A DNA stretch of 64,000 bases from an uncultured Thermoleophilia bacterium (GTDB lineage: Bacteria > Actinomycetota > Thermoleophilia > Miltoncostaeales > Miltoncostaeaceae): contig CALIKX010000047.1 of assembly GCA_938017905.1 (NCBI GenBank), positions 1 through 64,000 of the forward strand. The letters are read 5' to 3'. Each line of letters begins with the position of its first letter. Position 1 is the first letter of the stretch. The notes under the pieces were generated by a model. That model worked only from the letters and a program-made list of their open reading frames with translations. It was not told where the DNA came from and made no database searches. Shown here piece after piece: positions 22,019 through 31,406 of this stretch. The translations under genes were made by a program, and so were the position numbers.

Positions 22019-23824
22019 TCAGGTGACGGTCGTTCCCTCCGTCATCTGCTCGGCGCGCCCGACCATGCGCTCCATCTCGCTGAAGCCAGGGTCCCAGCAC
22101 GCGGGGTCGGCGAGGTCCACTCCCAGCGGACGCAGCAGGTCGGCGGGCGCGGCCGAGCCGCCTGCGGACAGGAACTCCAGGTAGCGGCCCACGAAGGCGT
22201 CGCCGTCCTCGCGGTAGCGCGCGTACAGCGCCAGGGTCACGAGGTGCGCGAACACGTACGCGTAGGTGTAGAAGCGCGTGGAGATGAAGTGGGGGATGTA
22301 TGACCAGCCCAGGCGGTAGCCATCCGGGATCTCCATGGCATCCCCGTAGTAGGCGGCGTTCCGCGCCAGCCAGAACCCCGACAGGCGCTCGTCGGTGAGG
22401 GTGGCGCCCTCGGCCCGTGCGCGGTAGGCGTCCTGCTCGTAGCGGGCCAGCACCGTCTGGCGGAACACGGTGGCAAACGAGCCCTCGACGCGCTCGCACA
22501 CCAGTGCGGTGCGCGTGGCCTCGTCCTGCTCGGTGGCCATGAGGTGGTCGAAGGCGATCAGCTCGGCGAACGTGGAGGGCACTTCGGCCAGGGCCAGCCC
22601 CGTGTGGAACGAGAGCGCCGTCTGGCGCTCTGCCGACAGCGTGAAGTGCATGCCGTGGCCCAGCTCATGCGCGAGGGTCATCACGTCGTCCATGCGGTCG
22701 GTGTAGTTCATGAGCATGTACGGACGTGCGTCCTGGGCGACGGACGCGCAGAAGGCCCCGCCGCGCTTGCCCGCCCGCGGCTCGGCATCGATGCGGTCCT
22801 CGCTGAAGAAGCCCCCCGCGATGTCGCCGATGCGCGACGAGAATGAACGGAATGAGGCGTCGATGATCCCCCGCGCCTCGGTCCACGGGACCGCCCGGGC
22901 CTCGCCCAGCGGCGCGTACTGGTCCGCAAGGTGCAGCCGGTCCAGCCCGAGCAGGCGGGCCTTCACGCCGAACCACCGCTGGGCCAGCCCGTAGTGGGCC
23001 TCCACGGCCGACATCATGGCCTCGATCGATGGGCCGGGCACCTCGTTGCGCAGGTGGGTCGGGTCCATGGGGTCGTCGTAGTCCCGTAGGGCGTCCATGG
23101 CGAGGCGGTCACCCACGAGGGTGTCGTAGCAGTGCGCGAGCGTGGGGGCCTCGGGGCCGAGCGCGCCGTACAGGGCGTCCAGCGCACCCATCCGGATGCC
23201 GCGGTCGGGGTTGCGCACGCATGCAAGCAGGCGGTCGATGGTGTGCGGCTCGGGCCCCTCGCCCGAGTCGAAGTCCGCCTCGAGGGTGGACGTGATGCGT
23301 CCGAACAGGGTCTGCCAGGCGCTGCTCGCGGCGGGGCTGCGCTCGGCCAGCATCCGCTCTTCGGGCTCGCTGAGGGTGTGCCGGCGGAAGCGGCGGGTCG
23401 AGAGCAGGTGGTGGCGGTCGGCCGCCACCTCAGGGGCGTTCGCCAGCTGCTCGGCGAGCGGCTCATCCAGCTCCAGCCACTCGAGCTCGAAGAACCGCAG
23501 CGCGTTCGCCGCTTCCACCATCGACCGGTCCATCAGGCCGTTCAGGTCCTGGTTCTCGGTGTCGGTCACGTCCACCGATTCCCGCAGCGACGCATAGGAG
23601 TGCAGGCGTCCCAGTTCGTTCTCGATCCGGGCGAGCTCGGCGAGTGCCGCGGCAAGGCCCGGGCCATCCATGGCGGCCACGGTGCCGCGGTAGCGTTCGC
23701 CGAAGGCGTGGCAGTCGGCCAGCGCCGTGGCCAGGCGTGCCCGGCAGTCATCTGCAGAGGCGCAGAGGGGGGAGAGGTCCCAGTGGATGCCCTCGGCGCG
23801 CGGTCCCGTACCTGTGGTCGTCAT
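22019..23824 (-). CDS. pepF: M3 family oligoendopeptidase, PepF type
   Basis: 601 aa, normal for PepF. The zinc site is LAHELGHGMHF (HEXGH with the downstream Glu in SFHTGLALAEVPSTFAE). MLMNYTDRMDDVMTLAHE and GYRLGWSYIPHFISTRFYTY are typical of the clade. It is a cytosolic peptidase cutting oligopeptides of about 7-17 residues. TAACGT (23837-23832) lies 7 nt before the ATG and just after the stop of the upstream PHP gene, so it probably has its own leaderless start. The 97-bp spacer downstream contains the palindrome CCGGGGCCCCGG (21938-21949) and nothing else seen. Confidence 0.93.
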   Translation of the reverse strand: MTTTGTGPRAEGIHWDLSPLCASADDCRARLATALADCHAFGERYRGTVAAMDGPGLAAALAELARIENELGRLHSYASLRESVDVTDTENQDLNGLMDRSMVEAANALRFFELEWLELDEPLAEQLANAPEVAADRHHLLSTRRFRRHTLSEPEERMLAERSPAASSAWQTLFGRITSTLEADFDSGEGPEPHTIDRLLACVRNPDRGIRMGALDALYGALGPEAPTLAHCYDTLVGDRLAMDALRDYDDPMDPTHLRNEVPGPSIEAMMSAVEAHYGLAQRWFGVKARLLGLDRLHLADQYAPLGEARAVPWTEARGIIDASFRSFSSRIGDIAGGFFSEDRIDAEPRAGKRGGAFCASVAQDARPYMLMNYTDRMDDVMTLAHELGHGMHFTLSAERQTALSFHTGLALAEVPSTFAELIAFDHLMATEQDEATRTALVCERVEGSFATVFRQTVLARYEQDAYRARAEGATLTDERLSGFWLARNAAYYGDAMEIPDGYRLGWSYIPHFISTRFYTYAYVFAHLVTLALYARYREDGDAFVGRYLEFLSAGGSAAPADLLRPLGVDLADPACWDPGFSEMERMVGRAEQMTEGTTVT

Positions 23825-23834
23825 GCCAGCGACG

Positions 23835-24671
23835 TTAGCCGAGGGCCGCCGCCAGGAGGCGGTCGACCGTCTCCACCGGTAGCGGCGGGTCGCCCGTGGC
23901 CCCGGGGTGGTGCGGGCTGCTCGGGCGGTGATAGTCGGATCCCCCGGATGGGATCAGCCCATACCGGCGGGCCAGCGCGCCGTAGGCCGCGAACTGGTCG
24001 GGCGTGTGCTCGGGGCGGTGCACCTCGATGCCCACCAGCCCGGCGCGCTGGAGGCGCCCCACGAACGGGTCGAGGTGCGCGGCGTCCAGCCTCAGCGTCG
24101 CCGGGTGCGCAAGAACGGGCGCCCCGCCCGACTCCCGCACCAGCGATACCCCCTCCTCCACGGCGAGGCCATCGGAGCCCACGTACGCCGGTTGGCCGTC
24201 GCCGAGGTACAGATCGAATGCCTCCGCTCGCCCGTCCACGTGTCCGGCCCGGATGAGGGCCTCGGCGATGTGGGGGCGCCCGAGGGGTGCTCCTGCCGCC
24301 CCCTCCACCACATCGTCCCAGTCGAGTGCGACCCCCATCTCGTTCAGGCGGTCGACCATCTCCCGCGCCCGCTGCACCCGCTTCTCGCCGAACCCTGCGA
24401 TGAGGCCCGCGAGCGGCTTCGGGGCGGGCTCGTCGAAGTAGCCCAGCAGGTGCATGCTGCCGTGCGGCACCTTGATCGACAGCTCGATGCCCGGAATCAC
24501 GCGGACGCCGATGGCACGGCCGGCCGCTGCCGCCTCGGCGACCCCGGCCATGGTGTCGTGGTCGGTGATGGCCAGCACCTCCACGCCGCGCCCGGCGGCG
24601 TACTCGACGAGCTCAGCGGGGTCGTGCTCACCGTCGGAGCGGTTGGTGTGGGAGTGGAGGTCGTGCGCCAT
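23835..24671 (-). CDS. PHP-domain phosphoesterase, TrpH/RNase AM type
   Basis: 278 aa from ATG 24671. PHP metal motifs in order: HDLHSHTNRSDG, ITDHDTMAG, PGIELS, APVLAHP and SGGSDYH. The arrangement with an inserted helical region (FGEKRVQRAREMVDRLNEMG) matches the YciV/TrpH group, whose members act as 3',5'-nucleotide bisphosphate phosphatases and 5'-3' exoribonucleases on short RNAs. TACCGT (24686-24681) ends 9 nt before the ATG and overlaps the -10 of the divergent SUI1 gene. Confidence 0.88.
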   Translation of the reverse strand: MAHDLHSHTNRSDGEHDPAELVEYAAGRGVEVLAITDHDTMAGVAEAAAAGRAIGVRVIPGIELSIKVPHGSMHLLGYFDEPAPKPLAGLIAGFGEKRVQRAREMVDRLNEMGVALDWDDVVEGAAGAPLGRPHIAEALIRAGHVDGRAEAFDLYLGDGQPAYVGSDGLAVEEGVSLVRESGGAPVLAHPATLRLDAAHLDPFVGRLQRAGLVGIEVHRPEHTPDQFAAYGALARRYGLIPSGGSDYHRPSSPHHPGATGDPPLPVETVDRLLAAALG

Positions 24672-24700
24672 GGGGCGGCGACGGTACCATCGGCCATGCA
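24672..24700. promoter_or_regulatory. Shared palindromic bidirectional -10, PHP gene / SUI1 gene
   Basis: Only 29 bp separate the two start codons. The palindrome GGTACC (24683-24688) is the overlap of two -10 hexamers: TACCAT on the plus strand (24685-24690, 10 nt from ATG 24701) and TACCGT on the minus strand (24686-24681, 9 nt from ATG 24671). Both transcripts would be leaderless or nearly so and would compete for the same melted bubble. Confidence 0.55.
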
Positions 24701-25039
24701 ATGGGACGCATTCGACGGCAGGGGGACGGCAACGCGAAGGCCGTCTACAGCACCGATGGCGGTCGCATCGACGACCGCGGTGGCCCGGCGCCCTCTCCCG
24801 GTGCGGGCGATGGCATCGTGCGGGTCTCGCGGACCAGCGCCGGGCGTCGCGGGAAGACCGTCACGCTGGTGACGGGCCTGCCCCCGGGTGAGCTCGGCAC
24901 CATCGCGAAGGAGCTCAAGCGACTGTGCGGATCCGGCGGCGCGGTGAAGGACGGGGTGGTCGAGGTGCAGGGTGACCACCGCGACGCGGTTGCGGCCCAC
25001 CTGGGACAGCGCTTCCGCGTGAAGATGGCCGGGGGGTAG
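24701..25039 (+). CDS. yciH: SUI1/eIF1-like translation factor (YciH)
   Basis: 112 aa. A Gly/Arg-rich N-terminus is followed by the SUI1 fold: VRVSRTSAGRRGKTVTLVTG, LPPGELGTIAKELKRLCGSG, GAVKDGVVEVQGDHRD. Bacterial YciH resembles eukaryotic eIF1 and affects start-codon fidelity and stress translation in E. coli, but it is patchily distributed. In a genome that appears rich in leaderless mRNAs, an initiation-fidelity factor is a notable companion. An out-of-frame ATG at 24696 precedes the real one. Confidence 0.92.
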   Translation: MGRIRRQGDGNAKAVYSTDGGRIDDRGGPAPSPGAGDGIVRVSRTSAGRRGKTVTLVTGLPPGELGTIAKELKRLCGSGGAVKDGVVEVQGDHRDAVAAHLGQRFRVKMAGG

Positions 25040-27664: not shown

Positions 27665-28852
27665 TCAGTGTCCGGGCAGCGTGATCTCGGCCAGGTAGGG
27701 CGGCTCGGCGAGCGGTGCGATGCCCAGGCGCCCGGCGGCGAGGTCGCACAGTGCATTGCCCGCCACTTCCCGGCGCCATCCGCGGCCCAGCGGATGGGCA
27801 TCGGTGTCATCACCGGTGAGCACGCAGGCGAGGAACCGGTCCACGTCGTCCCGCGTCGCCACCAGCGTGGGCGCGAGGTCCACCGCGGCCGCGCGGCCGG
27901 TGAGCAGGATCTGCGCAAGCGGCGTGAGGGTGTCCAGTCTGGCCTGCACCCGTGGCGGGGGTGGCGGCCCGAGGGCAAGGGGCGGATCTCCGTCGCCCTC
28001 ATCCATGGCGTGGATGAGGCCCTCCGCCTCGCGCTCGCGCATGGCCGAGGGGACGCCGCGCTCGTCCAGCAGCGCCGCAGGGCCGGCAGGGCGCCGCCGC
28101 GCGATCTCCAGCAGCGTGCGGTCAGGCAGCAGCCAGCCAACGGGACGGTCACGACGGCGGGCCTCCATCTCGCGCCACGCGGCCGCCCGCCGCAGCACGG
28201 CGCGTTCGCGCGGCTGGAGCCGGCCCTGCCCCTTTACCTTGCGCCACGCCTCGAAGGGGTCGGGGGCAACGCGGGCGTCGGGGCCGTAGCGCCGGTGGTG
28301 CTCTTCGATCACCCACTCGGTGCGGCCCAGGGCATCTGCCCGTGCCATCAGCCCATCCACCAGCGCGAACAGGTGGGCCACGTCGCTGGCCGCGTAGTCG
28401 AGTTGCGCACGCGTGAGGGGCCGCCGCGACCAGTCGGAGTAGCCCTCGGTCTTCGCGACCTTGATGTCGAGCACACGCCCGAGCAGGGCGCCCAGGCTCT
28501 GCCCGGCGCCGAGGCCCACGAAGCCGGCGATGAGTTGCGAGTCCAGCAGCGTCGCCGGACGGACGTCGAAGGCCAGCGCGAACAGGGTGAGGTCGGCGCT
28601 GGGCGCGTGCATCACCACCTCGACGGCGGGGTCGGCGAGCAGGGCGGCGATCTGGTCGAGCGGCGCGCCGGCGATCGGATCGACCAGCGAGATGCGGTCC
28701 TCCACGGCCACCTGGGCCAGGCACGGGATGGGCGCATAGGTGCGCTCCCAGAGGAACTCCACGTCGAGGGCCATGCGGCCGGCGGCCCGGGCGTGCCCGG
28801 CAAGGGCGGTGACGGCCTCTGGCGTGTCGAGGATCGTGGCGTTCGTTCTCAC
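27665..28852 (-). CDS. rnd: Ribonuclease D
   Basis: 395 aa from GTG 28852. DEDD exonuclease motifs: MALDVEFLWERTYAP (Exo I), VEVVMHAPSADLTLF (Exo II), and SDWSRRPLTRAQLDYAASDV (Exo III, DEDDy type with Tyr). The first HRDC-like domain begins near residue 205 (LQPRERAVLRRAAAWREMEA), and a second helical region follows. It trims the 3' ends of stable RNAs. It shares a palindromic promoter region with the divergent ABC-F gene; TAATCT (28866-28861) is 8 nt from the GTG. Confidence 0.9.
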   Translation of the reverse strand: MRTNATILDTPEAVTALAGHARAAGRMALDVEFLWERTYAPIPCLAQVAVEDRISLVDPIAGAPLDQIAALLADPAVEVVMHAPSADLTLFALAFDVRPATLLDSQLIAGFVGLGAGQSLGALLGRVLDIKVAKTEGYSDWSRRPLTRAQLDYAASDVAHLFALVDGLMARADALGRTEWVIEEHHRRYGPDARVAPDPFEAWRKVKGQGRLQPRERAVLRRAAAWREMEARRRDRPVGWLLPDRTLLEIARRRPAGPAALLDERGVPSAMREREAEGLIHAMDEGDGDPPLALGPPPPPRVQARLDTLTPLAQILLTGRAAAVDLAPTLVATRDDVDRFLACVLTGDDTDAHPLGRGWRREVAGNALCDLAAGRLGIAPLAEPPYLAEITLPGH

Positions 28853-28872
28853 TGCGCCTAAGATTAGGCACA

Positions 28873-28875
<3 letters not shown>
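28850..28875. promoter_or_regulatory. Palindromic bidirectional leaderless promoter, rnd / ABC-F
   Basis: A 26-bp inverted repeat, CACTGCGCCTAA-GA-TTAGGCACAGTG, with 11 of 12 arm positions matching. Its two ends are the GTG start codons of the two genes. The centre TAAGATTA contains overlapping -10 hexamers: TAAGAT on plus (28859-28864) and TAATCT on minus (28866-28861), each 8 nt from its start codon. No Shine-Dalgarno other than a possible AGG. It can be read as one symmetric promoter or as a dyad operator. Confidence 0.65.
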
Positions 28876-30752
<1,877 letters not shown>

Positions 30753-30756
<4 letters not shown>

Positions 30757-31406
30757 CCGGGCTGGGACCGGGTGACCGCGAGTTCGCGCAACTTGCATCC
30801 ATGTCGGAGGCCGTGGAGGTGCTCGCGGGCGCCGAACTGCCGGAGGCGGACCTGTCGGGCGCCATCGGGATCGTATCGGTGGGCCGCCTGGCCGTCGTGG
30901 TGGATGCCGAGGCCGGGCGCAGCCGTACCATCGCGTTGCTGCAGGAGGGGGATGCGCTGGCACTGCCCGAGGGCGGTTGGCCGGGCGCGCCCGGCGCGCG
31001 GGTGCGCGCCGCCATCGACGCCGAGGTGCTGGTGCTGGCGCGCCCCTTGGATGAGGTGCTGTGTGCTGACGCCACGCTGGGGACGTGGTTGCTGCGGGCG
31101 CTGGCGGCCGCGGTGGCCGATCGCGAGTTGTCGGTGGCAATCGCCCTGGAGCCCCGCCTGGAGCGACGCCTCGTCCTGAAGCTGCGCCAGCTGGCCGACC
31201 GGTGGGGCAAGGTGACGCCGGAAGGGGTGCGGCTCGACCTGCGGGTGACCCATCAGGAACTGGCCGACATGATCGGCGGCGCGCGGGAATCGGTAACCGT
31301 GGCGCTGGGCCGGCTGCAGGACCAGGGCGAGGTGATCGTGCGGCGCCGGACGGTGATCCTGCGCCGCATGGATGATCAGGGGCGCGTGGCCACCGAGACG
31401 GCGTAG
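30753..31406 (+). CDS. Crp/Fnr-type transcriptional regulator
   Basis: 217 aa. An N-terminal cNMP-binding-like beta roll (about 1-115, without the usual phosphate-binding RxA signature I would expect for cAMP) leads into a long dimer helix and a Crp-type HTH: LKLRQLADRWGKV, DLRVTHQELADMIGGARESV, TVALGRLQDQGEV, IVRRRTVILRR. Probably binds DNA as a dimer. Translationally coupled to the ABC-F gene, so it may control that unit or the neighbouring ergothioneine genes; both are guesses. Its 3' end overlaps egtD by 31 bp. Confidence 0.83.

Follow-up and report, generated by a model that had tools for sequence, protein, structure and literature searches.

Genes and palindrome at the rnd/ABC-F junction

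Two divergent genes are separated by a 20-bp gap in the window, the term used here for the whole 64-kb stretch of DNA that was analysed. On the negative strand lies an rnd-like gene (27665 to 28852, GTG start) with 3'-5' exonuclease and HRDC domains of the ribonuclease D type (PF01612, PF00570); against TIGR01388 it scores 252.9 bits, under the cut-off of 298.95. On the positive strand lies the gene for a ribosomal-protection-like ABC-F ATPase (28873 to 30756, GTG start), scoring 383.8 bits against NF000355 (cut-off 380). The start of the ABC-F gene is placed at the first GTG since codon 3, also GTG in the window, is GTA or GTT in most relatives. The nearest named match to the ABC-F protein is from a Gaiellales MAG (51% identity), and homologs from named genomes are too distant to inform comparison of the junction. 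A Crp-type regulator gene (30753 to 31406, positive strand) lies downstream and overlaps the end of the ABC-F gene.

The gap, 28853 to 28872, is the entire intergenic region. It sits within an imperfect 26-bp palindrome that takes in both start codons, CACTGCGCCTAAGATTAGGCACAGTG at 28850 to 28875, comprised of two 12-nt arms with one mismatch around a GA centre, the two ends being the GTG codons of rnd and of the ABC-F gene. At its middle is a symmetric core, TAAGATTA (28859 to 28866; general form TAANNTTA), containing two interleaved predicted -10 hexamers with a 4-bp overlap: TAAGAT on the positive strand for the ABC-F gene (28859 to 28864) and TAATCT on the negative strand for rnd (28861 to 28866), each 8 nt before its GTG. 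In coordinates, letters and spacing, both the palindrome with its terminal start codons and the overlapping hexamers are as the original prediction had described them.

Inverted repeats of this quality are unremarkable. Shuffled 64-kb windows contain a mean of 1.0 repeats of the 12+2+12 type with at most one mismatch, and the real window has another at 437 besides the one at 28850 to 28875, so the palindrome by itself is no evidence of function, and the idea that it is a statistically rare object can be dismissed. Separately, at 434 to 465 two 12-nt arms (GCAATCGTCGGC...GCCGACGATTGC) form a perfect inverted repeat around an 8-nt spacer.

Leaderless-type promoters in the genome

Gene calling covered 630 kb of the genome that the window belongs to, the window included, and used a home-made caller with a simple codon model that picks starts without reference to promoters; the resulting statistics leave out G020 and G007, training on the latter being poor. 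Of the 631 genes, 92 have a TANNNT hexamer ending 6 to 9 nt upstream of the start codon, against an expectation of about 8. By spacing, 31, 27, 23 and 11 genes carry it at 6, 7, 8 and 9 nt respectively; none of the 631 called genes carries it at 0 to 5 nt, and beyond 10 nt counts are near background. Both hexamers of the rnd/ABC-F gap, at 8 nt, fall within this peak. Among the 92 TANNNT promoters no clear information was found at the positions expected for a -35 element. Where the neighbouring gene is divergent, 28% of genes have a leaderless-type promoter; for genes that closely follow another on the same strand the share is 7%. Just 2% of ordinary promoters have A immediately 3' of the hexamer, which places the shared A of the core outside the normal consensus.

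Conservation of the junction in relatives

Matches to rnd were found in 39 of 42 genomes of the family, one of them weak and partial; G002, with no rnd match, is uninformative, its ABC-F gene running off the contig end. In total 34 junctions with the ABC-F gene adjacent and divergent were compared, all from one family and including the window and a near-copy of it (L003). Every one has TANNNT 6 to 9 nt ahead of both start codons. On the ABC-F side the spacer is exactly 8 nt in 32 of the 34, while on the rnd side it ranges over 6 to 9 nt. The hexamers overlap by 4 to 5 bp in one shared core in 29 junctions, all with gaps of 19 to 21 bp; these cases are not independent, the genus sequences being related. 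Alignment of the junction in relatives, proposed as a check in the original prediction, recovers the core symmetry in 29 of 34 rnd/ABC-F pairs, the other five being split.

Two forms of core occur. TAANNTTA, whose hexamers share 4 bp, is that of L020 and most of the window's genus; L010 and six further genera have TANNNTA, with 5 bp shared. In switching form the core retains the bases that define the two hexamers. Start codons differ between junctions (GTG, ATG, TTG), making the GTG/GTG mirror of the window incidental, and the outer base pairs of the palindrome are complementary about equally often within and between sequences. Only the putative promoter core, then, is conserved, the outer arms and the GTG/GTG symmetry drifting. 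The earlier idea of the 26-bp palindrome as the unit is not supported, as just 7 to 8 bp are kept and some relatives start with ATG or TTG.

The alignments also bear on the notion that the symmetry is fortuitous, each gene having a conventional promoter inside the other's coding region and the arms of the palindrome being Shine-Dalgarno-like AGG sequences. About one palindrome of such quality per window is indeed expected, and AGG does stand 4 nt ahead of each GTG in the window. However, AGG is missing from that position in L019, L020 and other genera, where both TANNNT hexamers remain, and chance symmetry accords poorly with a site that occurs once per genome and always at the rnd/ABC-F junction (below). 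The arms can be discounted as ribosome-binding sequences, AGG being unconserved in relatives, and the explanation as a whole is exceedingly improbable. Placement and conservation of the candidate promoter are not chance.

The pattern CAY-N6-TAANNTTA-N6-RTG has one site each in 14 of the 42 family genomes (13 genus members and G028), in every case at the rnd/ABC-F junction, and occurs in 4 of 257 further genomes of the class. A reversed-pattern control gave no matches in the 42 family genomes; the same control is unsuitable for TANNNTA, as it seems to favour coding sequence. The predicted site is single-copy and specific to the rnd/ABC-F pair. With one site per genome, an operator of a regulon was rejected.

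Bases flanking the core raise another reading, in which a bidirectional promoter is additionally controlled by a regulator reading GCCTAA-NN-TTAGGC, a sequence present in much of the genus. Across the 13 genus junctions with a 20-bp gap that were compared, C6 and G15, beside the core, do not vary, and a regulator overlapping the promoter could likewise account for core conservation. Yet L020 and other genera have different flanks, ordinary promoters of the window's genome have only a weak preference at the flanking positions, and no candidate regulator for GCCTAA-NN-TTAGGC was identified. Such added control is improbable on present evidence.

Split junctions and the Crp-type gene

Five junctions have wider gaps: 41 bp in L007, 30 in L024, 85 in L158, 83 in L022 and 75 in L023. 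In all five the symmetry is lost and each gene keeps its own TANNNT-N7/8-RTG; the ABC-F hexamer is then followed by G or T, the A or TA serving the opposite-strand hexamer having gone. In G029 (L223, L028), where some 2 kb separates the two genes, the ABC-F gene has TACCCT-N8-GTG with G after the hexamer, and rnd has TAGATT-N7-ATG. On the rnd tree, split junctions fall in at least three separate positions, and no fewer than three gains or losses of the split state are needed. These separate hexamers are the strongest argument that the core is a pair of -10 elements rather than an operator.

An operator, for example for the Crp-type protein, had been offered in the original prediction as an alternative. 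On such a reading the palindrome would bind a dimeric regulator, e.g. the downstream Crp-type protein, which would repress or activate both genes. The near-perfect symmetry in the window favours this, as does the position of the Crp-type gene overlapping the end of the ABC-F gene, an arrangement conserved in part of the genus only; moreover G014, whose junction (L007) has lost the symmetry, also has no close Crp ortholog. Against it, the outer arms are no more complementary within sequences than between them, the operator-like site is present once per genome, and the 26-bp palindrome contains no half-sites resembling TGTGA-N6-TCACA, its conserved core being TAANNTTA or TANNNTA. The core is also found without an intact adjacent Crp-type gene. 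G007 (98% complete) keeps it with no Crp ortholog, the best match being 30% identical and located elsewhere; in G001 the Crp-type gene is a remnant with two stops; and in the other genera sharing the core, Crp matches sit on separate contigs or well away from the pair. Because the core outlasts the gene in these genomes, the Crp-type gene does not explain the palindrome, and a Crp-type operator is very improbable.

Remnants of the Crp-type gene with two in-frame TGA codons are seen in two genus members (G001:C18:2290-2490 and G002:C137:1996-2196). Together with its absence from G007, they suggest that the gene is under loss.

A second predicted shared promoter core in the window

A PHP-type gene (23835 to 24671, negative strand), putatively assigned from its sequence motif, diverges from a SUI1-domain gene (24701 to 25039, positive strand) across a gap at 24672 to 24700. 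Within the gap lies a second predicted shared promoter core, ACGGTACCAT (24681 to 24690), in which two back-to-back -10 hexamers share TA. The form ANNNTANNNT, with varying N, is kept in all 16 genus members having an adjacent and readable PHP/SUI1 pair, the window included, and in a member of another genus (L202/L252) the core takes the TANNNTA form. The putative PHP/SUI1 core shows the same principle as that of rnd/ABC-F in another known overlap geometry. In a sample of divergent pairs with gaps of at most 80 bp from the window's genome, a leaderless-type hexamer is present on both sides in 9 of 31, for example in L141 (~15518), L127 (~7856), L140 (~14261) and L155 (~1028). The next negative-strand gene, starting at 23824, has a leaderless-type -10 of its own, TAACGT (within 23824 to 23840), its TAA doubling as the PHP-type gene's stop codon.

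Proposed mode of action

Taken together, the 20-bp gap is very probably one symmetric bidirectional -10 promoter giving rise to two predicted leaderless or near-leaderless mRNAs. The 8-bp core TAAGATTA would present two overlapping TANNNT hexamers, one per strand, to which RNA polymerase carrying the housekeeping sigma factor could bind either way round, without a recognisable -35 element. Transcription would start on each GTG or no more than about 2 nt from it, and the products, mRNAs for RNase D and for the ABC-F ATPase with 5' ends that do not overlap, would both undergo leaderless translation. The predicted distance between the divergent start sites is 17 to 21 bp. Core conservation and spacing in relatives support the minimal symmetric bidirectional promoter originally proposed, its two mRNAs being predicted leaderless or near-leaderless; the 8-nt spacing would also allow a leader of 1 to 2 nt and is equally compatible with leaders of 0 to 2 nt.

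The core would hold one polymerase at a time, and mutual exclusion with some regulatory consequence may follow. That polymerase must choose a direction, as first suggested, does follow from steric overlap of the hexamers; bidirectional promoters of this class in E. coli, however, show little competition at basal activity (PMC12825309), so the effect need not matter in practice. A broader proposal is that this lineage maintains -10 promoters shared between start codons as a device, the forced alternation of polymerase between strands holding the ratio of two RNA- or ribosome-related proteins (RNase D and ABC-F; PHP-type and SUI1) where no 5' leader is available for other regulation. This is conceivable, though we regard it as unlikely.

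Comparison with known systems

Leaderless promoters of other Actinobacteria resemble those predicted at rnd/ABC-F in having TANNNT near the start codon and no conserved -35. In M. tuberculosis, leaderless promoters carry a TANNNT -10 of this kind, 26% of genes with a primary transcription start site are leaderless, and closely juxtaposed divergent promoters have been noted (PMC3898074). The divergent pair prpD/Rv1129c produces two leaderless mRNAs from start sites 120 bp apart (1254630 and 1254510) (PMC3898074) and, unlike the rnd/ABC-F core, has no shared -10. In the open-licence literature searched, no case is described of one -10 common to two leaderless genes.

Another related class is that of bidirectional promoters whose nearly symmetric -10 is used on either strand (Warman et al. 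2021, summarised in PMC12825309 and PMC10268837). As in rnd/ABC-F, overlapping -10 elements lie on opposite strands. According to these summaries, a distance of 18 bp between start sites is commonest, 10 and 23 bp also being common (PMC12825309, PMC10268837). The TANNNTA core of L010 and six other genera has the 18-bp geometry of the class, with -7T and -11A reciprocally paired, whereas the TAANNTTA form of the window is offset by one base, which would give 17 bp by arithmetic when the last T of the hexamer is taken as -7. Small variations in geometry are, as summarised in PMC12825309, accepted within the class. ANNNTANNNT of PHP/SUI1 fits its 23-bp geometry. Overall, start-site spacing in the class is 7 to 25 bp, compared with the 17 to 21 bp predicted at rnd/ABC-F.

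In contrast to the class as described, the predicted rnd/ABC-F promoter makes up the entire 20-bp gap and yields two leaderless coding mRNAs. With no leader, no ribosome site and no separate promoters, it would be near the smallest layout possible for two opposite genes. Since relatives carry fused and split versions of the pair, they offer a natural experiment on how sharing a promoter affects two products, both their ratio and their noise, effects hitherto studied mainly in E. coli. To the symmetric -10 class the junction adds family-wide conservation and splitting upon gene separation, and judged from sequence comparison it is best read as an unusually compact variant of known bidirectional promoters.
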